Of a stretch of 64,000 nt of DNA, positions 2,730 to 54,237 are shown piece by piece. The stretch comes from Spraguea lophii. Lineage: Eukaryota > Microsporidia > Spragueidae. Position 1 is the stretch's first letter; each line of letters starts with the position of its first letter. Made by a program: the position numbers and the translations under genes. The stretch covers positions 54,309 to 118,308 of the forward strand of contig LDOQ01000129.1 in the NCBI GenBank assembly GCA_001887945.1, given 5' to 3'. Below the pieces are notes generated by a model. That model ran no database searches, was not told the origin of the DNA, and saw only the letters and a program-made list of their open reading frames with translations.

Positions 2730-3680
2730 TCGGGATTTTAAAGCATGTGAAAAAATAACCCTTATGAATGAAATGATTGTTACAACATGAGCCTAATTAC
2801 TTAGTAAATGTGCTGATAGTTTTACATTTGTTAATTGGCTGATGAACATAGGTATATTAAAAAATCAGGTTAGATGTTCAAAAGCAAAAAACTTATGGTT
2901 TTGATAACTAAAAACTGTTCAGATGGATATATTTGGAGATATTATAGATAACTGCAGAAATAAATCGAGTTCGACTAGAAAAAATTCGTTATTTGAAAAA
3001 AATAAAATACTTCTTACAATAATCATAAAAATAATATACGAAATTTGTACCTTTTCATCGTATAAGAATATAATAAACGAATATAATATTGATTATTCAT
3101 CAATTATAAAACAGTTATTAAAATTTTAGTCAATACTTTTGATAATAAATATAATAAGAAAATATGAGGTGATGGGATTTGGGTAGAAATAGATGAATCA
3201 TGTATTTCTAAAAGAAAGTACAGCAAAGATGTGTTCTTAAAAACCTTATGGCTTATAAGGGGTATAGATAGAGAAAGTTCAGAAACGTTTTTCGAGGTTG
3301 GTCGAATAAGAAATTCAACAACACTTAATAAAATTATAGAAAAACATGTAAACGAAGGCAGCAAAGTAGTAACAGATAATTGGAAAGGCTACGATAATAT
3401 TAATAAAAACAAATATGTGCATTTTATGGCAAATCCGAAAAAAATATTCCGTGGATCGGGAAAATAGTGATATTAACACACAAAAGATTGAATCACATGG
3501 TCTTGGTTCAAAAAATACTTAAAAAAACAACATTGAAAATCAGAAAGCCGATAACAGAGCATATTAAAAGATAAAATAATAAATTTTCAATAGACTTTTA
3601 TACATCCCTTCTAATTTGTCATACTTTCTTCATATGCCTTAAAACTCAACACTGCGAAACAAATAACGAGGGCGTGGAAA
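2730..3680 (+). mobile_element. Merlin/IS1595-type transposon relic with full catalytic domain
   Basis: The transposase reads NWLMNIGILKNQVRCSK near 2840, NKSSSTRKNSLFEKNK near 2955, then in another frame IWVEIDESCISKRKYS near 3178 (first Asp) and KVVTDNWKGYDN near 3365 (second Asp). The C-terminus is split, with TQKIES near 3484. The left end (GGGATTTTAAAGCATGTGAA, about 2732) is roughly inverted at the right end near 3640-3660, which suggests short inverted repeats. The element at 28480-29090 is a close relative that has lost the catalytic core. Several stops show this copy is dead. Confidence 0.7.
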
Positions 3681-3739
3681 TGTCGATAAAAGGGGTACCG
3701 GGATGGGAACAAAAAAAATATATTATTAAAAACAGAATG

Positions 3740-4560
3740 TTTTAAAACATCTGGTCCAGAATACATTATCTTTTAGTACTTTTTTACGAGAAGAAGGTAT
3801 AATTGTAAAAAATAAAAATGTTATAAATGTAGAAATATATTAAATACTTATGTTGGCGAAACGTTTGAATCGTCATATTTTTATTATAGAAAAGTTTATA
3901 TATTAAAAAACGATATCCATTTAAAATAAATTCTTTTTTATGATTTACGTATACCTATGAGCAAAATCCTAAAAATAATTTATGAACTTCCTGAAAAAAT
4001 AAAATTAAAAAACAATTAAAGAAACAGGTTTAAATAAGAAGATGTTAAAAAAATAAGAAGTATATATTGGTAGGGATTATATAATCTCCTCAAAATACGA
4101 ATTGGTGATAGGCAACATAGAATTGAAATAGATGAATCTTTCGTTGCTAAGAAAAATACAATAGGGGTAGAATAACAAAACCGATTTGAGTTATAGTAGC
4201 GTATGTAGAAAAAATAATGATGTATTCTTTGCAATAACAACAAAAAGGAGTTCAGATAGATTCTAAAAAATTATATATGAATGTAAGATCAAAGACGACC
4301 ATAATTACAGATTGTTGGAAAGGATATGTTTTTAAAAGATTCAACACATAAACACTTAATTATTAATCACAAAAGATTCTTTGTTGATCCAAAAATCCTG
4401 AAATAAATACTCAAAAAATTGAAAACAAATGGAAACACTTAAAAGATTATTTAAAATCAAAAGGGACTAACAAATATAAAAATATGCGGAATTTTATTAA
4501 TAATTTTTATACTTCAGAAAACAAACAGAGGGGTTTTCGGAATTATTAATCTTATTTAAA
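3740..4560 (+). pseudogene. Merlin/IS1595-type transposase relic, heavily decayed
   Basis: The recognisable blocks lie in different frames: ILKIIYELPEKIK near 3965, IEIDESFVAKK near 4126 (first Asp), TIITDCWKGY near 4300 (second Asp) and INTQKIENKWKHLKDYLK near 4400 (Glu helix). All three catalytic positions can be traced. Many stops and shifts separate them. This is the fourth Merlin copy in tandem order within the first 4.6 kb, all on the same strand. Confidence 0.65.
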
Positions 4561-4884
4561 CTAAATTCAAGTTTTTTTACTTACCAATCTCTTCTTTTAA
4601 TAATACACTTTTGTGCCCATCTTAATAGTTCTTTTACTGAAATATCAGTAATAAATGAAAATTATAGACAAAACTACAATATGAGTATAATAAGAAATTT
4701 AGAGTCCAATTATAAAACAACGCGAACTATTAGAGAGAAAGAAGCTGTTAGTCTGCAGCAATCAAAATAATTATAACTACGGCCACTTATCTTAAGTTTA
4801 CGATATTTATAAGACATTATATATTAAACGACAGGATATTACGCTCCAGTAATCCTGATATTCAAAGTGACCATGGAACAAATT

Positions 4885-4980
4885 AAAAAACCGTAGTAAA
4901 ATTTATATATCTCCAAGAACTAAAGGTCACAAACCATGGTAGGACGCAACTAGCCCGATCAAGATTTATTAATAGATTCC
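4885..4980 (+). repeat. SINE family relic, 3' part
   Basis: Bases 4917-4955 match the SINE copy at 29111-29602 (its positions 29524-29562) at 32 of 39 bases by hand alignment, centred on ACCATGGTAGG. Most differences are C to T or G to A, as expected from decay. The match thins out on both sides. It shows that the family was present long enough to leave old, nearly erased copies. Confidence 0.55.
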
Positions 4981-6100
4981 TTAGAAAAGCAGATTTATCA
5001 GATTGGAAGTTGAATTAAAGAATAAGAAAATATAATTAATAATGTTATAATAACAAAAACGTATCTTAAATAAATTTTCTTATGTTTTAAAAAAATAAAC
5101 AACGAGTTTAATGTTGTTAAAAAAGATTTCGACATAAACATAAAAACACAGAAAAAATTTTTAGGAACCGTACACGAAAAAAACCCTTATTCCATAAAAG
5201 AAATAATTAATATAGGTTGATATTAAAAAACGATAAATATAAAATAACCATCTTAAATCTATCATAATATTTTGAACATATAATATGTAGTAAACATGTA
5301 ATATCAATAACTTTAAAAAACATATTTCTTACTATAATTCCATGGATCAATTAGTCTAATTAACCAATCATAAGAAATTGAGGGTAAAATAAAAAAAAAT
5401 TAAAAAATTAAAAAATAAAAAATATTATTTTTTTCGAAATATCTAAATAAAGCGGATAAAATGGATATATAAATAATATGTAAAACCAATCAATAAACAG
5501 TATTCTGTTGTGTGTTTTTAAACATTTTATTAGTAACTATTATATATAATATCGATTCTTCATTGTAAAACAGGTTGTGGTATTCACTCTTTTTTATACC
5601 CATTCTCAAATAGCTGGTCTTTATGTTACTTTTCGTAGCTTATAATGTTATATTCAAGACCGACCAGTATATTATACGTAAAGAAGTCTTATTTATTATA
5701 ATTTACTAATTTTTATAAAAAAAGAAAAAGATTGAACAATATCATAAGAAAGAAATATTACCTTTTATAAAAAAGACAATAAAAGTTGTATTTTATGTAA
5801 ATATTAAAATCGCCCTTCTTTCCCCTCCATCTTAGTACAAATATTGAATAGATTCTTAATCCCATGTGTTTTGAATGCATTATCATCGAATTAATTATTT
5901 TAGAAAAACTTACAAAACTTAAGAATCTTTTGAATAAAAAAGATGTAATTGCCCGTGACAATTATTATTATCTCGATTAAATTTATTTAATTTAAGTACT
6001 AAAATATTCGATCTATTTATTGTATTTCTACTAATATCAGTTGTTTTTTATAATATTGTCTTCTATGTCCCATCTATTTTTCAGAAATTCAATATTTTGA
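4980..6100. other. AT-rich region without recognisable gene
   Basis: I see only short chance frames. The longest (about 67 codons, minus strand, 5758-5961) has no recognisable motif. The stretch lies between element relics and is probably older element debris. Confidence 0.5.
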
Positions 6101-7294: not shown

Positions 7295-7515
7295 AATTCT
7301 ATAGAACATCATTGGCCAAATAACAAATCAATACAAAAATTATAACTACACCAATCAAACGCCATTTTAATCTACCAGTGTAACGTAATACAGATTATAA
7401 CCAATGTTATGTTATCGCATCCTCATCAACGCAAACACATTTTTTCTTCTCTCTTCCGCTTTTTTTAAAAAATCCTTCGGTGTATAGGTTTTGAACCCAC
7501 CCACCGGGCATTTAA
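7295..7515 (-). repeat. SINE family relic, 5' (tRNA-like) half, minus orientation
   Basis: The stretch matches the minus-orientation SINE copy at 27200-27692: a TTGGCC start then ACAAATCAATAC, the block around ATTTTAATCTA, then TTTTTCTTCTCT and the T-loop-like GAACCC at 7494-7499. Many C to T type changes and small gaps make it an old copy. The 3' half of the element is missing. Confidence 0.6.
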
Positions 7516-7639
7516 TTAACATTCTACAATTACTCAGCAAATGGGATTAAAATAAACATTTTTTCAGTAAAAAGCACATATAGATATCATTACAAAGTTT
7601 TCAAAAAAATTAACCTTAATGGGTTTTTTAATAATATAT

Positions 7640-8520
7640 TTCTACCTATTTTCAATGATTTTGTAGATTTATAGATTCAGATTTTAAGGAATAAAGGACT
7701 TTAAAATCATATACGGTTTGTAATTTATGCAACCAAAATATATTTAATGTTAAAAAAATAAAATTTATATAAAAATGCATGGAAATGCAAAAATTCATCC
7801 TGTGTGAAAAAGACCATAAAATCAATAAGGTCTAGAAGTATTTTACAAAATTTTCATAGTTTGTTGAAATCTGTAATAATATTTATTTACTGTTTTTATA
7901 ATGATTATACCGTAGAAAATCCCATGGATATGGCAAATATTAGTCAGGGACTGTAATATCTTTTTTTTGCAAAATTAAGAATAAGAATAAAAACCTTCAT
8001 AGATTCTGAAAGAACTCTTTAAGTGCATTGGATAACACTTCAAACAGATGAAAGTATGTTTTACCCCAAATCTAAATATCATAGGGGTAGAGCGACAGAA
8101 ACAGGAAAAGGATATTTGATATTGTGGACATTAGCTATACGCCCGTGCGAAAGTTTTATGTATATAATTGAAGATAGGTCACAAGAAACTCTATTGCTAA
8201 TAATAAATGAGATATGTTTAGCGGGTCGTATTATTTGGCGTGATCAATGGTTTGGATATAAAAATATACAAGAAAAGATATTTATACAACACAAAACTGT
8301 TAACCATAAAGAAATCTTGTTGTCCAAAAACTGGTGTCAGTACATAATCTATTGAACCGTATTGGAATAAACAAAAAAAAGGAATAAATATAAAAGTGGA
8401 ATAAAAAAGAGTTATTGGAAGTATATATTAAAGAATGGATGTTTAGGGATAATATTATGAGGAAGGTTATTAATAAATTATTTGAAATATTTAGATATGA
8501 AAATAATGATAATTAAATTT
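7640..8520 (+). pseudogene. Merlin/IS1595-type transposase relic (second family)
   Basis: The frame at 8023-8355 holds ITLQTDESMFYPKSKYHRGR (first Asp in QTDES), EDRSQETLLLIINEIC, IIWRDQWFGYKN (second Asp) and QHKTVNHKEIL, the order seen in ISXO2-like transposases. The zinc-binding N-terminal part can be traced in broken frames from about 7690 by comparison with the minus-strand relic at 26160-26540, and the C-terminus (VYIKEWMFRDNIM, near 8418) also matches that relic. The Glu helix is broken. It differs clearly from the copies at 1-4.6 kb, so it is a separate family. Confidence 0.65.
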
Positions 8521-8870: not shown

Positions 8871-9678
8871 TAATAACCGATAAGGTATTCAAATTCATAG
8901 AAGACTTTAAAACATCCTTAATAGATGAAGAGATATTATTAGAATTTTATGTTTGTTCAACCTATGGATTTAATTCCAAGTTAATGATATATACCCAAGG
9001 AGAAAAGTTATATTTAATACAAATATTAGTATTTTAAATTATTTTTTAGCGGTATATTTTATAATGTCTAGTACCAATTATTGCCAATTAAAGTGTTGTT
9101 GGATATTTCAGATGTTACAATCTCATCAATCAAACACAAATTAAGAGGTGTATAATATATATTTGGAGAGAAATCCAATAGTCTTAGATGGAATAGGTGT
9201 GATTTTAGAAGTGGATGAAACAGTTATCTCTAGGAGAGGAATAATTGTTAATCCAACAACATTATCTGATGAAGTTGCTGATATGGTATGGATATTAGGA
9301 GTTGTAGATCAAACAAATATCAGATTTTTTTTTATAAAAAGAGTGGAAAATAGACAATCTAATGCATTGGCACGAGTTTTAGACGGCATTATTAGAGTTG
9401 GAAGTGTTTTATGTGGCGATGGGTATCCATCGTACCCCGCGGTTGCTGTAAACTTAAACTTATCTCATATTATTGTAAACCATAGTCATGGTTTTGTTAA
9501 TGAAGAAAGTGACAACACAAATACCATTGAAAGCTTTTGATCACATCTTAAGTCTTCGATGAGAAAAGAAAACGGGGTTATGAGGCAAAACATCGATTTA
9601 TGGTTAGGTGAATATATATTTAAAAGAAGGTATTTGACAGGAACAAGCAATGAAGAGTTCATAAGAATATTTATTTAG
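8870..9678 (+). pseudogene. Merlin/IS1595-type transposase (fourth family), single nonsense codon in catalytic domain
   Basis: The catalytic domain (9148-9678) is well kept: VILEVDETVISRRG with the first Asp, VLCGDGYPSYP with the second Asp, and NTNTIESF with the Glu. Directly after IESF comes TGA (9538-9540) where relatives have a Trp codon (IESFW). The same frame then continues as SHLKSSMRKENGV and YIFKRRYL to a stop at 9676-9678. The frame opens with a GTG at 9148 that is not a real start. The N-terminal part lies in other frames (DISDVTISSIKHKLRG near 9100). The protein resembles animal-type Merlin transposases more than the neighbouring families do. Confidence 0.75.
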
Positions 9679-10634: not shown

Positions 10635-11570
10635 CATTAAATTTTTTTACCTTTGTGATGACAAAAAAAAAAGAAATAACATTAGAGCGTTTTAAGACGA
10701 TATTCATAGAAGAAAAAGAAAAAAAGACACTTAAGATGATGTTTTAAACGTTGCCTTAGTAAGATGAGCATTGTAAAACATCTTAAAAATTCAATAAAAT
10801 GCCGAAAAAAAGGTGTAGAAAAACTGAAACTTTTCTTACTGGAAAACCTTTTTTTAATTCGAAGTTAGATTGGGACAAAATTGTTTCAATAATATATAAC
10901 ATTTTGGTAGGTGCCAAAAAGAAGAATATTAAATTATTATACAATGTGAACACGAGAACAATAAGAAAAATAACTAAAATAATAGGGAAAATTGTATTAA
11001 AATACAATAAAAATATTAAATTAGGTGGGAAAAGAGTCATTGTAGAAATTGATGAATCTAAATTTGGAAAGAGGAAATATAATAGAGGCCATAGGGTAGA
11101 GGGAACTTGGATTTTAGGAGCTGTAGAAAGAACAGGTAAAAGAAAAATAGTATTACAACCTGTTATTAAAAGAAATAAAGAGGTAATAAACAAATTCTGT
11201 GAAAAACATATTATAAAAGACAGCATTATTTATACAGATTGTTGGAAAAATTATAATGATGTTCATGAAAACTACTTCCATTCAACTGTGAACCATTCTA
11301 TATCTTCATTGATATAATTTCAGGAGTACACATAAATAATATAGAAGGAACATTATGTGGAATAAAGCAATATATAAAAAAAAAGCGTATAACTCATCGT
11401 TATTAAAATATTACCTAGCATTGTTTATTTTTTTAAGAAATGAAGGTAAAGAAATGTATTATATTTTAATACAATTACTAAGTTATTAATCTTTTTAATA
11501 TTTATTTATTGACATCACAAGGATATAAAAAAATTAATTTCTTTCAAAAGAGTACGGTATAGGTATCTCA
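10635..11570 (+). mobile_element. Merlin-type transposon of the third family, left end truncated
   Basis: The transposase starts at the ATG at 10658 (MTKKKEITLERFKTIF), stops at 10747, and resumes in shifted frames (CLSKMSIVKH, then CRKTETFLTGKPFFNSKLDW from 10799). The catalytic part is intact within 10799-11317: VEIDESKFGKRKYNRGH (first Asp), DSIIYTDCWKNY (second Asp) and STVNHS. After the stop at 11317 the Glu helix follows in another frame (HINNIEGTLCGIK near 11330). The right inverted repeat lies at 11531-11570; the matching left repeat is missing and is found instead at 8601-8640. At least three frameshifts separate the parts. Confidence 0.75.
11531..11570 (-). repeat. Right terminal inverted repeat of the third Merlin family
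   Basis: Its reverse complement matches 8601-8640 at 30 of 40 bases without gaps, including GATACCT and TTTTGAAAGAAATTAA. The two repeats bracket almost 3 kb of nested material. Confidence 0.6.
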
Positions 11571-18445: not shown

Positions 18446-20880
18446 CTAATCTTTTTCTGAACTTGTTATTAAATTGGTTACCACATCATCCCAGGTTAGT
18501 ATAAATGGTATAATTTCTACATTTGTTTTATAGACTGTGTTTAGCTCATTGACGAATAGTTTGTATTTCTTATACTTTTCTGCTTTTACACGTTTAAGAT
18601 TTCCTAAATATATAATGCCATTTCTACAATTTTTATATCATTCTTCTCCTTATCATAAATAAAAATATCAGGTCATTATGTTTAATTAGCAATGTGTTTT
18701 AATTGGAGTGTTTACTTTTATCTGGACCCTATTGTTTGTTAATACCGGTTCTATATAATGGTTCCTTGATTTCATATTCTTTTTCCCCTTGTATTTATTA
18801 CAAAGCTGGAGATGAATCGCCTTTAATATTTCATTGGTTCGTAATCATACAATGTCCACAGCATACGTCCACAGCTTGTTGCCATATGATATATTATTTT
18901 ACTAGCTTATTACAATTATTACATCTGTGCTCGTTGGTTCTAAGTATGACGTTCCGATCCTGGTATAATATAAATATGCCTTCTGCTTGCGGTGTTAAAT
19001 TCCCATTCCTCCACCACAGGACGAATGTTCTTTATTAAATACATTTGCGGTGCCGTGTAAAGTCTCATTTCTTATTGTAACCAACGTTCATCTCTCTATT
19101 TATGCCTGAAAGAATTGTTATATATTTGATTTATTTTGTATTTGTTGATTCGAAATCTGATATCAATCCTAACTTTGTACATTATTGGTTTTGTTTATTA
19201 TAGTTATTCTTTTCTTTTCGTCTCTTTCCTTTCGCAAAGTTAATTCTTAAACTTTTATAATATATGTTCATTCTTATGAACCCACTCCTTAATCCTCTTC
19301 CTAATTCTTTTCTATTTATATATATTTTTTCTTTACTGATGGTTGGAATGTTACTTTATCTTCTAATAAATTTTTTCTTATCACCAAATCTATATTCTCT
19401 AATTCTTTCTTTGAGAATTCAATTATTTCTATAAAATAGTTTAAAGCTCCAATCACAAATTCAGTAATTGCACGAAAAAGGGTTTTGAGTTTGATTTGGA
19501 GTCTAATATTTTTTTAATTCTTGTTTCTATTTTTTTAAGATCATTTTGTGATTTATATCACTAATTTATTTTTTACGATTTTCCACAATTCCGAGATATT
19601 TATACGTTCGGGTTTTTCAAGATATATTCCACATATATTTTTTCTATATATGGCTACTGGCAGATTTTTCGTCATTTGTTCCTAATCCTATCGTATTCAA
19701 AAGTTGCATGGTTTTCAAAGTAATATTTTTTAAGTTCTCTATGTCATTGATAAATAATTTAATATCACCAATAAAAATAAAATTATTAACTTCTTTATTA
19801 CTTATATTGTCATTAACCACAACTTGATTTTTCAATTTATTAAGGCCTACCTGAGGTTCTAATACTATTACGAATAATGTTAGGCCAGACTATCTTCTTG
19901 TAATATTTCCCTATCTATCTTTGCTTCTCCAATATTTTTTTATGTAGTTTATAGTTCTATTAGGAAATTAAATTTCTCAGGTATTCTATCAAATACTTAT
20001 GATTTATTGAATCATAACCTTTTTAATATCTATCCAGGTTGTTTCTAGCAATCCTTGTTGTTCCTATTTATTATTTTGTTAAAAGCGCCTGTCCTTAACT
20101 CCTTGGGAATCCTACCGGTTCCTATTTGGTTCTATGGTATATCTTATTTAGTTCATGCGTCCTCTAAAAATATTATTTATTACCATATTCATCAATTTGT
20201 ATAGATTAGACATACAAGTTATGGGTCTCGGTCACCAGGATTATTTGTTGATTTTTGTGGTCTTAGATAAGTAATACCAGTAAAAAGCTAAGCTTCAAAT
20301 TCCAACTTCCGCTCTATGTATTTATTCATTATATCTTTTAGTTTATATATTTTTGTTAATTTTTTGAGAAAAAAAGTTATATATCTTATCCACTCCTGCA
20401 TTTCCAGTTTGGAAGTTTGCCAATGTCTTTCCAAGTTCTTTCCTTCTATTCAAAAAAAGTTTTATAGATATTGTCACTTTGAGTTCCTCTAGAGTTAGAC
20501 TCTAATTTTTCTTTATATTTTGGCCATATCTTACCCAGTATTTAATTACCTTTTCTGCATCTGCAGTTGAGTTATTATCATTATTCTCTAAATTTCTATA
20601 AAACATTTCTTTACTACACTCAAGATACTTGTTATCTTCTCTAAAATTTTTTTTAATTTCATATACTTCTAACCTTCTCTTCCTGGTTTTTATTTCTTCT
20701 TCAAATTTATCACGTTTGGTTGAGATTATTCATATCCCATTTTTTAATGTTCCCATTTCTTAAACGTTGTAAATTTCTTTAATTTTTAATGTTGTCTCTT
20801 CCCTTGTTAATCTTATCAATATATATTTTTAGGTTTTTCTATACATGTTCTAATCTTGTTACCCTACTATTTACGGTCTC
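18446..20880 (-). pseudogene. Non-LTR retrotransposon (LINE) ORF relic, R2/R4-type with restriction-like endonuclease
   Basis: Read on the minus strand the relic contains, in order: a pre-RT region (EEIKTRKRRLEVYEIKKNF, DNKYLECSKEMFYRNL, near 20590-20710), WKDIGKLPNWKCRSGVDKIY (near 20400), GITYLRPQKSTNN and DPITCMSNLYKLMN (20200-20290), the palm box NNFIFIGDIKLFINDIENL (19740-19800) where the usual xxDD has become F-I-G-D, and GLGTNDEKSA. At the C-terminus come IIYHMATSCGRMLWTLYDY (near 18860), PDIFIYDKEKNDIKIVEMA (18620-18680; the P-D and E of the restriction-like endonuclease) and YKTNVEIIPFILTWDDVVTN, with a stop at 18446-18448. The order fits R2/R4-clade LINEs, which use this endonuclease. 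Many frameshifts and stops show it is dead. The N-terminal zinc fingers were not identified. Confidence 0.75.
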
Positions 20881-27199: not shown

Positions 27200-27692
27200 T
27201 TTTTTTTTTACGAATGAAACTTTTATTTATCAAAGCTTCCTGGCCGGTTGCGGCCTACCATGGTCTGAGACCTTCGGTTCCTCGAGCGAAATTAAACTTG
27301 TACTAACTGGTTTCGTTACAGATATGCATTAATCTCATCTTACCTTATGCTCCAGAGTGTTAGGATTTTGCGTCTGGTGCGCGTCGCCGCCCCCACTTCC
27401 AGCTCTTAAGGAATTCCCAGCCTCTTTCGTTGCATAGTATTGGCCGAGTCACAAATCAATACAGGGATTGCAACTACATCAGCTGAACACTACTTTAATC
27501 TAGTAGCGGGGCCGTCATACAAGGCACAGCTATGCTGCGCTATCGAAACCTCACCCACTCAACAACCTTTTTCTTCTCTTCTGCGTTTATTATTATTTTT
27601 TTTTGTTTTGAAAATTTTTTCTGGATGAGGGATTCGAACCCGCCAGGCTTGGGGTTTGGTTACCACCCCACGACCACTGGGCCAGGCGGGAC
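27200..27692 (-). mobile_element. tRNA-derived SINE, full-length copy (493 bp)
   Basis: On the minus strand the element starts GTCCCGCCTGGCCCAGTGG, with a Pol III A box (TGGCCCAGTGG) and, 33 bp later, a perfect B box (GGTTCGAATCC). A body of about 400 bp with no coding capacity follows, and the 3' end reads AAAGTTTCATTCGTAAAAAA. It is flanked by an exact 14-bp direct repeat. By hand alignment it differs from the copy at 29111-29602 at only about five substitutions plus A-run length. Its G+C is far above the surrounding DNA. Head, tail and duplication are those of a SINE; it would need LINE enzymes in trans. Confidence 0.85.
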
Positions 27693-27706
27693 GATGATCA
27701 TTTTAC
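27693..27706. repeat. Target-site duplication, right copy (14 bp)
   Basis: It is an exact repeat of 27186-27199, next to the tRNA-like head of the SINE. Confidence 0.85.
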
Positions 27707-28479
27707 ACGCGCATTAATATCTATGTTAATTTGAAGTAATACCCCTGAGATTTAAAAATAATCCGTAATATTTCAGATGGATATGAATATGATATTAGAA
27801 ACCCTTCTGAAAGAATTTGTCATGTATATTTAGATTATGTCTTGGTTTTTGGTGAAATAAAAAGTATTTGGAATAAAAATTTTACTAAAATGATAACTTG
27901 TCTAAATGAATATAATTTAAACATAGTCAAAGAAACCTTAATATTCTGTTAAAATGATGCTACTTTCCTAGAATAATACTTAATAAAGTTTTCTACTATT
28001 AAAAACAAGAGAAACCCCATACCTCTGTCAAAAAGAAAATTATGAAGTTTTATAAGTAACGTTATAATTTATTGGGTGAAAATAATTATAAATGAACAGA
28101 ATTATAAGATAAGAATTCAAAAGATAAAAGAAAAAGATACAAACCCGCTAAAGTTCAATATATTACTGATGAGCGAAGAATATAAATTAGAAATAGATAT
28201 TTCATATATATATCTAAATTTTAAAAAGTTGTGAACGGAATTATAATATTTCAGAAAAAGAAATGTTAATAATTATATGAGCTTTTGAAAAGTTTAAATG
28301 TTTTTAATAAATAATAAAGTTAAATGTCGTAACACATAATAAAGATTTTAGTATAATTAAAGATAAGAAACATTTTATAGGTGATTTAAAAGTTGAGTAA
28401 TTATAAATACATTGTAATACTTAGAATTATTAATTAAAATTTAGAGGTAAATACGCTTAAAAAAGTTTGTTTGAATGTT

Positions 28480-29090
28480 TGGGGATTTTAAGACATGTGA
28501 AAAAATAACTTATATGAATGGAATGATTGTTGCAACAAGGTCTAATTACTTAATAAATGTACGGATAGTTTTATATTTGTTAATTGGCTAATGAACATAA
28601 GTATATTAAAAAATCAAGCTAGATGTTCAAAATGTAAAAAATTTATGGTTTCGGTGACTAAAAATTGTTTGGATAGATATATTTGGAAATGTTATAATTA
28701 TAAATGCAGAAATAAATCGGGTTCGATTGGAAAAAATTTGTTATTTGAGAGAATTAAAATATCTCTTACAATAATCATAAAAATAATATACGAAATTTTG
28801 TTTTTTCATTGTATAAGAATATAATAAATGAATACAATATTGATTATTCATCAATTAAAATAGTTATTGAAATTTTAGTTAATATTTTTGATAACTTAAA
28901 GAAACAACATTTAAAATCAGAAAAGTTGATAACAGAGCATATAAAAATATTTTTTTTTCTAAACATGAAAAATTTTAATTTTCATAAAATATTAACAGAT
29001 TTAAGGTAAAGCAATGAAGTTTTGAATCTATTTCTATACTTTTTTTCTAATTTATTTTACTTTTTTTACATGCCATAAAACTCCAAAAAA
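28480..29090 (+). mobile_element. Internally deleted Merlin element (relative of 2730-3680)
   Basis: The first 400 bp follow 2730-3130 closely, including NWLMNISILKNQARCSKCKK near 28577, IWKCYNYKCRNKSGS (zinc ribbon with both C-x-C pairs) and YKNIINEYNIDYSS. Near 28890 the sequence jumps to the C-terminal end (KKQHLKSEKLITEHI), which lies about 390 bp further on in the relative. The block with EIDES and VTDNW is gone. The ends are roughly inverted (GGGGATTTTAAGACATG at 28480 and CATGCCATAAAACTCC at 29069-29084). It is a non-autonomous derivative of about 600 bp. Confidence 0.7.
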
Positions 29091-29097
29091 GTTTTTT

Positions 29098-29110
29098 TTA
29101 CAATAGCAAA
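29098..29110. repeat. Target-site duplication, left copy (13 bp)
   Basis: TTACAATAGCAAA is repeated exactly at 29603-29615 and flanks the SINE at 29111-29602. Confidence 0.85.
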
Positions 29111-29118
29111 GTCCCGTC

Positions 29119-29129
29119 TGGCCCAGTGG
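29119..29129 (+). promoter_or_regulatory. Pol III A box in the SINE head
   Basis: TGGCCCAGTGG fits the tRNA A-box pattern TRGCNNAGYNGG. It is conserved in the 27.2 kb copy and, as TGACCCAGTGG, in the 50.4 kb copy. Confidence 0.75.
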
Positions 29130-29162
29130 TCGTGGGGTGGTAACCAAACCCCAAGCCTGGCG

Positions 29163-29173
29163 GGTTCGAATCC
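29163..29173 (+). promoter_or_regulatory. Pol III B box in the SINE head
   Basis: GGTTCGAATCC is an exact match to the B-box consensus GGTTCGANTCC. The same 11 bases occur in all four long copies, including the otherwise decayed one at 30.7 kb. Confidence 0.8.
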
Positions 29174-29602
29174 CTCATCCAGAAAAAAATTTTCAAAACA
29201 AAAAAAAATAATAATAAACGGAGAAGAGAAGAAAAAGGTTGTTGAGTGGGTGAGGTTTCGATAGCGCAGCATAGCTGTGCCTTGTATGACGGCCCCGCTA
29301 CTAGATTAAAGTAGTGTTTAGCTGATGTAGTTGCAATCCCTGTATTGATTTGTGACTCGGCCAATACTATGCAACGAAAGAGGCTGGGAATTCCTTAAGA
29401 GCTGGAAGTGGGGGCGGCGACGCGCACCAGACGCAAAATCCTAACACTCTGGAGCATAAGGTAAGATGAGATTAATGCATATCTGTAGCGAAACCAGTTA
29501 GTACAAGTTTAATTTCGCTCGAGGAACCGAAGGTCTCAGACCATGGTAGGCCGCAACCGGCCAGGAAGCTTTGATAAATAAAAGTTTCATTCATAAAAAA
29601 AA

Positions 29603-30700: not shown

Positions 30701-31172
30701 TAACCTGCTTGATCCCGTGGTCGTGGGGCCGTAACCAAATCTCAAGTTTACCAGGTTCGAATCCCCTTCCCACAAGAATTTTCAAAAAAAAAGAATAAAA
30801 AAATAAAGGAGAAAGGTTGTGGAACGAGTGAGGGCTTGATAACATAGTATTGATTATGCCTTGTACACCGGTCCTATTATAGACTAAAATAGTGTTTAGC
30901 TGGTGTAATTGTAATCCCTGTATTGATTTGCGACTCGGCCAATATCATACTAATAAGAAAATCATTCATCATCTTTAATGGTAGAATGATTACTGTACCA
31001 TAAACGAAAAATCCTAACGCTCCGGAACATAATGTAAAATAAGGTTAATGAATATCTGTAGAAAACCAGTTAATACGAGTTTAGATATGTTTTAAAACCC
31101 AAAGGCATAGACTACAATAGATTGTAGCCAATCTGGAAACTTCTATAAACAAAAGTTTCATTAATAAAAAAA
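30701..31172 (+). mobile_element. tRNA-derived SINE, older full-length copy
   Basis: It has the same order of blocks as the two young copies: a head with GTGGTCGTGGGG, an intact B box (GGTTCGAATCC near 30753), CTGTATTGATTTG, GACTCGGCCAATA and a 3' end AAAAGTTTCATTAATAAAAA. Numerous C to T and G to A changes and a replaced stretch near 30955-31005 mark it as older. The A box is degraded and no clear target duplication remains. It lies at the edge of the gene island, about 150 bp before the first gene. Confidence 0.75.
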
Positions 31173-48879: not shown

Positions 48880-49375
48880 AAGAAATACAATTTGAACAAA
48901 TATATATTCTTTAAAATATGATTGACGTTTTTTTATTGGAGTTAATATGACAGTTTATAAATTTTAAAAAATATACAAATAAATTGATGCATTTTTGATT
49001 TTTACAATATATTATTTGGAAAATAGTATTTAACGATGTTCACTGTTTTTTTAAACATAAAATATATTTGACACTTTTTTTTAAAAAAAATTTAAATATT
49101 TTAAAAATCAAAAATGTCAAAAATTGATAATAATAAAATAATAAGTTAGATAATACAACGTTTATAAAAAGATTTTTTTAAAAATCACATATATTTAAAA
49201 AATGACATAAATATATAAACATTATGTGATATATTAAAATATAAATAAAATGTAACAGATGGTATATTCTTTTTATTTATAACGATTTAAAAACCATATT
49301 CGTCTTTGTTTGGTTATATATTTATCACAATTACTTATCGACAAATAATTCGCATCAACAGGATTTATTGCTTTT
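48880..49375. other. AT-rich spacer upstream of a secreted-protein gene
   Basis: Only A/T runs and short palindromes are visible; no coding frame or known signal. Confidence 0.45.
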
Positions 49376-49545
49376 TTGATAAAACTTTTATTTAAATGGA
49401 ATTTTCTGGCCGATCCGATCTATTATGGTCTATGGCATTTGGTCCCTTAAACACATTTAAATTTGTACCAATTAGTTTTGTTACAGCTATGTATTAACCT
49501 CATCTTATCTTTTATATTCCAGAACATTAGGATTTTAAAGTTTTA
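49376..49545 (-). repeat. SINE family relic, 3' part, minus orientation
   Basis: The plus strand reads GATAAAACTTTTATTTAAA, TTCTGGCC, GGTCTATGGCATTTGGT, TTTGTTACAGCTATG and ATTAGGATTTT in the same order as the minus-oriented copy at 27200. Many changes and loss of the tRNA-like head mark it as old. It lies about 190 bp behind the stop of the BIR gene, and a second, fuller copy lies in front of that gene. Confidence 0.6.
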
Positions 49546-49731
49546 ACATTTTATTACCAATAACAATCTCTAAGTTAAATGAGATGGTTTAAATAAATTA
49601 AATACTTTTTAAATCATTTTTTTTTGTTTTCCATTAGAGAAGGAAAAAACGTAATGCGATAACCACTCTGTCGTAATGATTTTTTAAAAAATAAAAAAAA
49701 ATCAAAAGTTTATAAAAATAATCAAATATTC

Positions 49732-50441: not shown

Positions 50442-50930
50442 ATTATTTTTTAATAAAGAAACTTTTATTTATAGAAATCTCCAGACGGGTTGCAGCCTAC
50501 CATAATCTGTAGCCTTCGGTTCCTCAAGCATGTCTAAGCTTGTACTAACCGGTTCCACTATCTATATGCATTGATATCATCTTACCTTATACTCTAGAAT
50601 GTTAGGATTTTGCGAATGGTGCACGTCGCCGCCCCCCTCTGAGTTTTAAGGACTTCTAACCTCTTTGATTGCATAGTATTGGCCGAGTCACAAATCAATA
50701 CAGAGATTGCAACTACATCAGCTAAACACTACTTTAATCTAGTGGCAGGACCGTCATATACAAGGCACAGCTAATGCTGCGCTATCAAACCCTCACCCAC
50801 TCAACCACCTTTTTCTTCTCTTATGCCTTTTATTATTATTGTTTGTTTTGAAAATTCTTTTAGATGAGGGATTCGAACCTGCGAGACTCGGGGCTTGGTT
50901 ACCACCCACGACCACTGGGTCAAGCAGGAC
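50442..50930 (-). mobile_element. tRNA-derived SINE, full-length copy in a divergent promoter
   Basis: On the minus strand it starts GTCCTGCTTGACCCAGTGG, keeps the B box GGTTCGAATCC, the central block around GACTCGGCCAATACTATGC, and ends GAAACTTTTATTT-like (plus strand 50459-50471) before an A-run. Differences from the young copies are scattered through its length, so it is of intermediate age. It fills almost all of the 572 bp between the BIR start codon (50424) and the isoleucyl-tRNA synthetase start codon (50997). Both genes must therefore be expressed from sequence inside or immediately beside the SINE. Confidence 0.82.
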
Positions 50931-50996: not shown

Positions 50997-53900
50997 ATGA
51001 ATGACAAAGAATTTAATTTCATTAATGCGGAAGAAGAAATCTTTGCTTTATGGGAAAAGAATAAAGTATTTCATAAGTCTAATGAACTTAGTGCAGAGAA
51101 ACCAGAATATATATTTTATGATGGTCCTCCATTTGCTACAGGTCTACCACACTATGGTCATATACTCAGTGGTACTATAAAAGATACGGTTACAAGATTC
51201 TTTTATCAACAAGGATACAAAGTAGATAGGAGATTTGGATGGGATTGTCACGGATTGCCAGTAGAATATGAAATTGACAAGATGTTGGGTATAAATTCCA
51301 GACAAGATGTTTTAGAGATGGGAATAGACAAATATAATAAGGAATGTAGAAGTATTGTTATGAGGTATTCAGAAGAATGGGAAGTAATAGTAAAAAGATT
51401 AGGAAGATGGGTAAGCTTTGAAAATGGGTATAAAACCATGAATTTTGAATTTATGGAATCTGTTTGGTATATTTTTAAACAACTTTTTGATAAAGATTAC
51501 GTGTACAGAGGATTTAGAGTCATGCCATTTTCTACTGCATGTTCTACACCACTTAGTAACTTCGAATCAAATCAAAATTATAAAATGGTAAAAGATCCAT
51601 CATTAGTTGTAGCATTTGCCCTTGAAAATAAATTTAAAGGAAAAGATGCTAGCTTACTTGCATGGACAACAACACCATGGACATTACCTTCTAATTGTGG
51701 TTTGGCAGTCAAGAAAGAAAATAATTATGCATTATTTGAGAAAGAAGGAAAATTTTATATTATGGGAGAAAATAAAGTTACTGAGTATTTTGAAGATGCA
51801 ATTATTATAGAAAAATTTTTAGGGGAAGAATTAGTTGGACTAAAATATGTTCCACTGTTTAATTATTTTGCTGATGACAAAAGATTTTTCAAAATCCTAC
51901 ACGGTGATTTTATATCAGATGAAAGTGGTACAGGTGTTGTACACATGGCTCCTGGATTTGGTGAAGATGATTATGATACATTTGTAAAAAATGGAGTAAT
52001 TCAAGAAAATGAATCTGTACCATGTCCAGTAGATGATAAAGGATTGTATACAAAAGAAATAAAAGATTTTGAAGGAAAATATGTAAAAAATTGTGACAAG
52101 GAAATTATAAAATTACTTGGAGATAAAATATTGGTTAAGAAAGTAGAAGAGCATAAATATCCATTTTGTTGGAGATCAGATACTCCTCTTTTGTATAAAT
52201 TGGTACCAACGTGGTTTGTTAAAGTAAAACAATCAGTAGAAAATTTATTAAAAAATAATGAAGAAATCAAATGGATACCTGAGAACGTAAAATATAAGAA
52301 ATTTCACAATTGGTTAAAGAATGCAAGAGACTGGTCTATTTCTAGAAATAGATTTTGGGGAACCCCAATACCACTATGGGCAAATAAAGATTACAGTAAA
52401 ATTGTATGTATAGGCTCTGTAAAGGAATTGGAAGAGAAAATGGTTAAAAAAGAAAAAATTACAGATATCCACAGAGAATACATAGATCATATAACAATAA
52501 TGGAAGATGGTGAAGAACTTCATAGAATAGATGAAGTTTTAGATTGTTGGTTTGAAAGTGGTTCTATGCCTTATGCACAAAACCATTATCCATTTTCCAC
52601 TGATAATCTTAAACATCCAGCAGATTTTATAGGAGAAGGAGTTGATCAAACCAGAGGATGGTTTTATACTTTGCATGTAATTTCTACTCTTTTATACAAT
52701 AAACCGGCATTTAAAAATGTTATTGTCAATGGAATTGTCTTAGCAGAAGATGGAAAGAAGATGAGTAAAAGATTAAAAAATTACCCAGATCCTATGGTTG
52801 TCGTGAACAAATATGGTGCTGATTCATTGAGATTCTATCTTTTATCATCGCCTGTGGTATTAGCTGAAAATCTAAAATTTTCAGAAAATGGAGTAAAGAA
52901 TGTATTTAAGGATTTGTTAATAAGTTGGTATAACTCTTTGAAATTCTATTTAGAATGTAGTAAGAATGTAGATTCTATCGAAAATGATAAAGGAACACCT
53001 TTAGATAGTTGGATATTATCAGCATTGAATCATTTAACTTATAAGATTTCCTCGAAGGTAAAAAATTACGAGCTTAATATTTTAGCTGATGTCTTAAAAT
53101 TCATTGATGAATTATCTAATTATTATATCAGAATGAATAGAAAATTAATGAAACTCGGAAGAGTAAAAGTATTGAAGGAAGTGTTAATGAAATTTTCAAT
53201 GTTAATGGCCCCATTTACACCATTTTTCTCTGAATATTGTTATCAGAAACTTAAAAAAGATACTGAAGATTTTTATTCTGTGCATTTTGAAATGTATCCT
53301 AAGGTTGAGAAAATAGAAGAACATGTATTTGATTCTACAAAAATGGTAATAGAAGGAATAAGAACATTTAGAGATATGAAAACCATTACATTAAAAACAC
53401 CTCTAAAGAAAATAACTATTATATGCAATGATGAATTTAAAAACAAAATTAATAATTTTATTGAAGTAATACAAGATGAATGTAATATTCTTAAAATAGA
53501 CTTTGATTCAGAAGATAATTATAAATTTCTAGAAACAATTAAACCCAACTTTGCAGGTATAAATGAAAATTCATCCTCTAATGACGAGAAAAAACATAAA
53601 ATAGCAAAAATAAGAAATATTAAAGATTTTAACAATATCAGTGATATACTTAAAGAATTGGAAGTAAAAGAAAATGAGATTTTACTCACCAAAGAATTAA
53701 AAATACCTAATTCTAAATGTTTTGATGGCTTCAGTATCATATTTGATCTTGAAGTGGATGATGAAATTAAGAAATTAAAAGAATGTAGAGAAGTACATAG
53801 TTTTATACAAAAGATGAGAAAGAAAGTAGGATTGAAACCAGAAGATAATGTTAAGGTTAAAATTAATGATGAAGGATTAGAAGAACTTTTAAAAGAAAAA

Positions 53901-53999
53901 TACAAAGAAACAGTAATTATAGGAATAGGAAGTAAAATAATAGTAGAAGAATTATTTAAAAGAAAAGGAAATGATATCAAGGTAACTATTTATGAATAA
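50997..53999 (+). CDS. ILS1: Isoleucyl-tRNA synthetase, cytosolic
   Basis: This class I enzyme charges tRNA-Ile with isoleucine. The HIGH motif is HYGH at residues 52-55, the KMSKS loop is KMSKR at 588-592. The editing domain shows TTPWTLPSN (about 224-232) and GTGVVHMAPGFGEDD (about 311-325), which remove mischarged valine. The anticodon-binding part (from about 670) and a C-terminal domain follow. At 1000 residues it is slightly shorter than the yeast cytosolic enzyme (1072), and it resembles eukaryotic cytosolic rather than bacterial forms. Microsporidia lack mitochondrial translation, so one enzyme is expected. The start is preceded by TCCTAACA. A SINE head lies 66 bp upstream. Confidence 0.95.
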   Translation: MNDKEFNFINAEEEIFALWEKNKVFHKSNELSAEKPEYIFYDGPPFATGLPHYGHILSGTIKDTVTRFFYQQGYKVDRRFGWDCHGLPVEYEIDKMLGINSRQDVLEMGIDKYNKECRSIVMRYSEEWEVIVKRLGRWVSFENGYKTMNFEFMESVWYIFKQLFDKDYVYRGFRVMPFSTACSTPLSNFESNQNYKMVKDPSLVVAFALENKFKGKDASLLAWTTTPWTLPSNCGLAVKKENNYALFEKEGKFYIMGENKVTEYFEDAIIIEKFLGEELVGLKYVPLFNYFADDKRFFKILHGDFISDESGTGVVHMAPGFGEDDYDTFVKNGVIQENESVPCPVDDKGLYTKEIKDFEGKYVKNCDKEIIKLLGDKILVKKVEEHKYPFCWRSDTPLLYKLVPTWFVKVKQSVENLLKNNEEIKWIPENVKYKKFHNWLKNARDWSISRNRFWGTPIPLWANKDYSKIVCIGSVKELEEKMVKKEKITDIHREYIDHITIMEDGEELHRIDEVLDCWFESGSMPYAQNHYPFSTDNLKHPADFIGEGVDQTRGWFYTLHVISTLLYNKPAFKNVIVNGIVLAEDGKKMSKRLKNYPDPMVVVNKYGADSLRFYLLSSPVVLAENLKFSENGVKNVFKDLLISWYNSLKFYLECSKNVDSIENDKGTPLDSWILSALNHLTYKISSKVKNYELNILADVLKFIDELSNYYIRMNRKLMKLGRVKVLKEVLMKFSMLMAPFTPFFSEYCYQKLKKDTEDFYSVHFEMYPKVEKIEEHVFDSTKMVIEGIRTFRDMKTITLKTPLKKITIICNDEFKNKINNFIEVIQDECNILKIDFDSEDNYKFLETIKPNFAGINENSSSNDEKKHKIAKIRNIKDFNNISDILKELEVKENEILLTKELKIPNSKCFDGFSIIFDLEVDDEIKKLKECREVHSFIQKMRKKVGLKPEDNVKVKINDEGLEELLKEKYKETVIIGIGSKIIVEELFKRKGNDIKVTIYE

Positions 54000-54154: not shown

Positions 54155-54237
54155 TTTTTTAAAAACCAAATATCATAAACCATAATAAATTACAATTGGT
54201 CAAGAAATTTTTATAGATAAAAGTTTTATTAAAAAAA
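54155..54237 (+). repeat. SINE family relic, 3' end only
   Basis: The stretch reads ACCATAATAAATTACAATTG, GTCAAGAAA and AGATAAAAGTTTTATTAAAA, matching the last 80 bases of the young copies (ACCATGGTAGGCCGCAACCG, CCAGGAAG, GATAAATAAAAGTTTCATT). Nearly all differences are C to T or G to A. It lies about 80 bp before the EAF6 start. Confidence 0.55.

Follow-up and report, generated by a model that had tools for sequence, protein, structure and literature searches.

The 64,000-nucleotide stretch of Spraguea lophii DNA that we analysed (the window) carries copies of what we consider, with a probability of roughly 0.93, to be a recently expanded SINE family of this microsporidian, partnered by a LINE that shares its tail. 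The evidence read from the DNA consists of the anatomy of the element, its copy number, its target duplications, a nested insertion, the tail held in common with the LINE, and the endonuclease and reverse transcriptase carried by LINEs of this kind; we infer that mobilisation of the SINE has been recent or is ongoing.

Copies in the window and across the genome

We scanned the window with a profile made from 49 SINE copies, using the reversed window as the control, and found six firm pieces of the family (each at E ≤5.3e-20), with zero profile matches at E 1 in the reversed window (Table 1). The profile matches span 27692-27204, 50930-50446, 49536-49375 and 7537-7310 on the - strand, and 29111-29600 and 30704-31171 on the + strand. 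An earlier sequence-only reading of the same DNA had counted at least eight pieces, including four full copies. The profile recovered all four full copies; however, the piece placed at 54155 is weak, and the piece at 4885 proved to be a LINE 3′ end, rejected as a SINE relic because its SINE likeness is confined to the tail common to both elements, and the surrounding segment aligns along its full length with the LINE coding end and 3′ UTR. The near identity claimed for the two youngest window copies also held, since their alignment over 492 positions shows 6 differences, including a single gap, and the exact target duplications ascribed to two of the full copies were present.

Table 1. SINE family pieces and the partner-LINE relic in the window (coordinates in the 64-kb stretch).
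Feature	Position	Strand	Remarks
Reference young full SINE copy	29111..29602	+	exact 13-bp target duplication TTACAATAGCAAA either side
Pol III A box (putative) TGGCCCAGTGG of reference copy	29119..29129	+	
Pol III B box (putative) GGTTCGAATCC of reference copy	29163..29173	+	33 bp past A box
LINE-shared tail of reference copy	29514..29602	+	3′ UTR similarity to partner LINE; conserved block ~29514-29573 with predicted double hairpin, then A-rich end
Young full SINE copy	27202..27692	-	98.8% identity to reference copy; exact 14-bp target duplication
Old full-length SINE copy	30704..31172	+	70% identity, GC 0.34; B box exact
Older full SINE copy	50445..50930	-	83.6% identity to reference copy
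SINE relic, 3′ third	49375..49536	-	profile match
SINE relic, 5′ half	7310..7537	-	profile match; B box exact
Weak candidate SINE tail relic	54164..54236	+	profile 9.2 bits, E 0.0056
Partner-LINE relic: coding end and 3′ UTR with shared tail	4733..5098	+	LINE alignment

Most of the 572 bp separating two divergent genes, a BIR-domain gene (start 50424, -) and the IleRS gene (start 50997, +), is taken up by the older full copy at 50445-50930; this copy lies ~20 bp from the start of the first gene and 66 bp from that of the second, and may have altered both promoters. The IleRS in question (50997-53999) supports the host identity, matching the IleRS of Spraguea lophii 42_110 at 100% against 58% for the second-best match.

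The genome searched comprises 5.27 Mb in 73 contigs, with the window on contig C5. Searching it with the 492-bp copy gave 46 matches (40 of 459 candidates scored): 40 span nearly the whole unit with 96-100% identity, and 6 are shorter, with 72-91%. A 28-bp core of the body (≤3 mismatches) occurs at 172 genome places (76 + 96; 0 for the backward control) and a 30-bp core of the tail at 143 (66 + 77; control 0). The DNA that we fetched holds 49 near full-length copies, of which 44 are young (≥96% identity), two of these in the window; the other 5 were excluded from the consensus and from the duplication counts. The consensus of the young set is 492 bp long with a GC of 0.46, and its members carry a mean of 5.3 substitutions each relative to it (range 1-10, n=44), in keeping with the young family that had been proposed; this low divergence, taken by itself, suggests recent activity. 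Markers of subfamilies were unsorted (36 haplotypes across the 44 young copies at 12 sites, without clean groups), and we therefore name no subfamilies. Five contigs (C3, C19, C35, C46 and C48) start at one point within the SINE, with the core at 113-140, and another five (C15, C25, C54, C56 and C60) at one point with the tail at 60-89. The SINE thus probably breaks the assembly of this genome, and given these contig starts the copy counts are lower bounds.

An exact target duplication of at least 12 bp flanks 34 of the 44 young copies, and all 34 are distinct; at a threshold of at least 10 bp the number rises to 36, with lengths of 10 to 17 bp. When the 5′ flank of one copy was paired with the 3′ flank of another, duplications of these two sizes were found in only 2 and 15 of 1892 combinations, respectively. 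Ten young copies have no exact 12-bp duplication, and 8 of those no 10-bp one (weaker or none). The search, consensus and duplication list that the sequence-only reading had suggested as a check thus yielded further copies with duplications of their own. Nesting was found at two loci: at L038 a young copy with a 7-bp duplication sits between two parts of an old one (profile positions 3-106 and 115-488), and at L052 a young copy with a 15-bp duplication lies inside the B box of an old one, whose downstream half was recognised by the profile and whose upstream half by eye only. The copies sit in AT-rich DNA, and the insertion sites display only a weak preference, a T preceding the duplication in 22 of 34. 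None of the 26 young copies with a 600-bp flank seems to break an open frame of at least 120 codons, in a test that removes a fixed 14 bp and might miss a frame.

Composition tracks divergence. The two young copies of the window have a GC of 0.46 and 0.45, a copy at 84% identity has 0.42 and one at 70% has 0.34, and two relics stand at 0.29 and 0.34; this fall agrees with the AT mutational bias stated for Spraguea in the available text of PMC4948709. From the old copies it is evident that this genome has housed the family for some time. The window as a whole has a GC of 0.24, against 0.46 for the young SINE and 0.41-0.43 for the LINE pieces, and the high GC of the young copies may reflect a recent arrival.

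Head and tail of the element

Each full copy had been described as bearing an A box and an exact B box 33 bp apart. The B box is indeed exact in all four full window copies, and also in the relic at 7537-7310, and the spacing was recovered in both young copies; the consensus A box, however, is exact in only two of the four (29111 and 27692). The pair of boxes at this spacing had a mean of 0 in 200 mononucleotide shuffles, and each of the 5 exact B boxes that the window contains falls in a family copy, whereas mononucleotide shuffles would lead one to expect 0.08 in all. Across 23 old copies the B box is also the best conserved of nine regions (0.85), with the core at 0.81, the A box at 0.80 and the tail block least conserved at 0.63. 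The young copies have one common 5′ end, and the TTTT at position 79 is the sole run of at least four T in the consensus. By its boxes, the head carries a putative internal Pol III promoter. The body is non-coding as claimed, with no ORF of at least 120 aa overlapping any of the four full window copies, and the copies do finish in a run of A.

How the head relates to tRNA is less direct. ARAGORN found no tRNA in the window, and Rfam no family there at gathering scores. A young copy compared with Rfam gave no tRNA match at E up to 10; its sole tRNA-clan match was a 13-nt T-arm-like piece of the tmRNA model (9.7 bits, E 0.094), an overlapping match that could mask a weaker tRNA one. The Rfam tRNA model likewise gave nothing at E 1 at six loci with old copies. 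A tRNA search of the genome (63 of 485 candidates scored) returned 57 genes above the cut-off and one match below it, and none of these coincided with the head of a young copy that we had fetched. Compared with 22 of the 57 tRNAs against mononucleotide shuffles, the head came closest to tRNA-Arg(TCG) (z 6.4), followed by tRNA-Lys (5.3), in a comparison whose choice of strand was automatic and in which one or more of the 22 tRNAs look misoriented. The boxes and this modest similarity to Spraguea tRNAs speak for the tRNA derivation that had been proposed, but the head is predicted to fold alone as a hairpin and goes unreported by the Rfam tRNA model; because the tRNA covariance model does not recognise it, 'tRNA-related' appears the safer term than 'tRNA-derived'. 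At locus L035, a 5S rRNA gene (7907-8025) is flanked by SINE copies of differing ages.

The tail adds to the first reading. SINE positions 369-463 align with a LINE 3′ UTR directly past the stop codon (70 of 97 columns, E 4e-11; piece L061), so that the SINE and a LINE resident in this genome have a tail in common. Used as a query (40 of 114 candidates scored), the LINE 3′ end returned 17 LINE copies as judged by extent, including the query itself and window 4733-5098, 19 matches confined to the common block, and a further 4 that cover only the first 44-46 bases, which belong to another element. Two adjacent hairpins are predicted alike in the SINE tail and the LINE 3′ UTR. Across 20 rows, 17 from the SINE (including one young fragment) and 3 from the LINE (including a partial one), standard pairs are preserved in 162 of 220 cells, against 13-39% for slid partners. 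Because the SINE consensus was the source of the hairpins, which in itself favours them over the slid controls, and because old copies vary more in the tail block than in any other region compared, this pairing is support rather than proof.

The partner LINE, mechanism and alternatives

The LINE is represented by pieces. One, at C72 (L017), runs to the contig end; another, at C21 (L061), contains the end of the LINE frame, the stop, the 3′ UTR and, by eye, a zinc-finger-like motif. A 1216-aa NCBI protein (P0141) aligns over residues 3-669 to the C72 piece (72-76%) and over residues 1008-1216 to the C21 piece (62-68%), the latter alignment stopping just before the shared tail. Being collinear with both, P0141 indicates that the two pieces come from opposite ends of a single kind of LINE; at C1, a degraded copy (L058) carries both in order. 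P0141 contains an RVT_1 domain (5.8e-40), a sub-threshold Exo_endo_phos match (6e-4; 20.1 bits vs. a cut-off of 24.5) and a weak resemblance to the endonuclease structures of L1 (E 6e-4). Judged on this protein, the partner LINE would encode both an endonuclease and a reverse transcriptase; a 479-aa LINE piece from the Spraguea genome by itself had no Pfam match at 0.001. The relatives of the partner LINE are distant and mostly unnamed. We found no intact LINE in the Spraguea assembly: the C72 copy leaves its contig and its frame is broken, and several LINE copies stop at contig ends. Among nine RVT_1 matches in the genome, which include C56 and C5, two are the partner LINE (C72 and a degraded copy at C48:24138); we set aside C73, C44 and C48:16630, which their domains or inspection by eye mark as Ty3/gypsy-like, and two C2 matches as telomerase.

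We propose that Pol III would transcribe the SINE from its internal A and B boxes, starting at or near its first base, into an RNA whose terminal tail is related to the resident LINE's 3′ UTR. The LINE reverse transcriptase would recognise this tail, probably via the two adjacent hairpins, and target-primed reverse transcription would insert a DNA copy at AT-rich sites, leaving an A-rich end and target duplications of mostly 12-17 bp. Retrotransposon transcripts have been reported for S. lophii (PMC3749934, available text); these fit an active partner, and their source may be an element other than the partner LINE.

Other origins for the family have to be weighed against this. DNA transposons make target duplications of fixed length, whereas those exact to at least 10 bp vary in length here among 36 of the 44 young copies, and both the A-rich 3′ end and the match of the tail to a LINE 3′ UTR also argue against a cut-and-paste, non-autonomous DNA transposon (MITE); such an origin is extremely unlikely, even with ISXO2-like transposase ORFs present in the window and MITEs described in Nosema (PMC4405373, available text). 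The LINE-like tail would equally suit a 5′-truncated or internally deleted LINE, but the young copies have their single 5′ end and Pol III boxes, and SINE positions 1 to ~368 match L061 only in A-rich low-complexity stretches, in a comparison that takes in the LINE middle and 5′ UTR incompletely; we hold it highly improbable that the element is no SINE but such a LINE derivative.

We give equally little credence to an assembly artefact or to anglerfish host DNA in the assembly, which might have accounted for the GC excess of the SINE over the window and for the contigs that start within it: the copies sit in AT-rich DNA, those of the window amid microsporidian genes, most copies have a duplication of their own, and some are nested in older, AT-decayed copies. 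It is possible, if rather doubtful, that the SINE-LINE pair itself came from outside, perhaps from the fish host or some other organism associated with a host, and that it has expanded ever since, a reading raised because the GC of the young SINE and LINE is far above that of the window and older copies drift AT-ward; were it true, one of the small genomes among eukaryotes would be in the course of being reshaped by a live SINE-LINE pair. A 23-bp exact SINE core had no match in viral contigs.

Related systems and other retroelements

Microsporidia are the textbook case of genome shrinkage, and despite this the SINE covers 2,322 bases, or 3.6%, of the window (matches at E 1e-3, the weak relic at 54164 excluded). 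The anatomy is ordinary for a SINE; what makes the family notable is that it occurs in this group of hosts, is paired with a LINE and is so abundant in a tiny genome. Entamoeba, an unrelated host, offers a parasite-genome SINE whose 3′ end is common to a resident LINE (EhSINE/EhLINE), and that pair probably differs from the Spraguea one in its 5′ ends and LINE clade. AfuSINE2 of Aspergillus fumigatus (available text of PMC5063351) is likewise fungal and tRNA-related with target duplications (4-14 bp), a likeness across species drawn by description alone. Stringent-type SINE/LINE pairs (available texts of PMC5135761 and PMC3747384) similarly have a LINE-related tail with a predicted hairpin, whereas the Spraguea tail has two adjacent predicted hairpins, and recognition by the LINE protein is putative here.

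The sequence-only reading was aware of no SINE of this type in microsporidia. This mostly agrees with the openly accessible journal papers that our searches listed, none of which describes a microsporidian SINE family in its title or at the start of its abstract, but a repeat table for Nosema bombycis does hold a bare 'SINE' row (28,669 bp, 0.18%; PMC3614468, available text). For Spraguea, one LINE family (PMC4202319), similarity clusters of non-LTR proteins (PMC4948709) and, in the same genus, non-LTR transcripts (PMC3749934) have been reported, and neither the main texts of these three papers nor the available text of PMC3486916 contain the word SINE. Spraguea infects goosefish and its populations are divided (PMC4948709, available text); whether a given young insertion is there or missing would serve as a clean population marker for this genus. 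A matched SINE and LINE in a small genome would also be a tractable setting for how a LINE enzyme recognises a SINE.

Several other elements were seen along the way. ISXO2/IS1595-like transposase ORFs, which we take to be Merlin-type, lie in the window at 9148-9540 (just below the Pfam cut-off) and 10799-11317, and in L061 at 3556-3885. The telomerase reverse transcriptase gene at L013 (C2:65028-68276) has an RNA-binding domain and, by eye, Asn-rich stretches. A degraded reverse transcriptase relic (window 19587-20228, -; RVT_1 23.6 bits, below the cut-off; 13 stops) had no match to P0141 or to two gypsy-like proteins at E 0.01. A second, distant LINE occupies L061 1-1155 (28% to P0141 over part) and has its own 3′ tail, the end of which recurs at five other places and is resembled by a window relic at 49604-49650 (-). 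Near a contig end, at L061 ~3549-3567, a telomere-like stretch, GGGTTAGGTTAGGTTAGGG, lies between LINE-like and transposase-like sequence.
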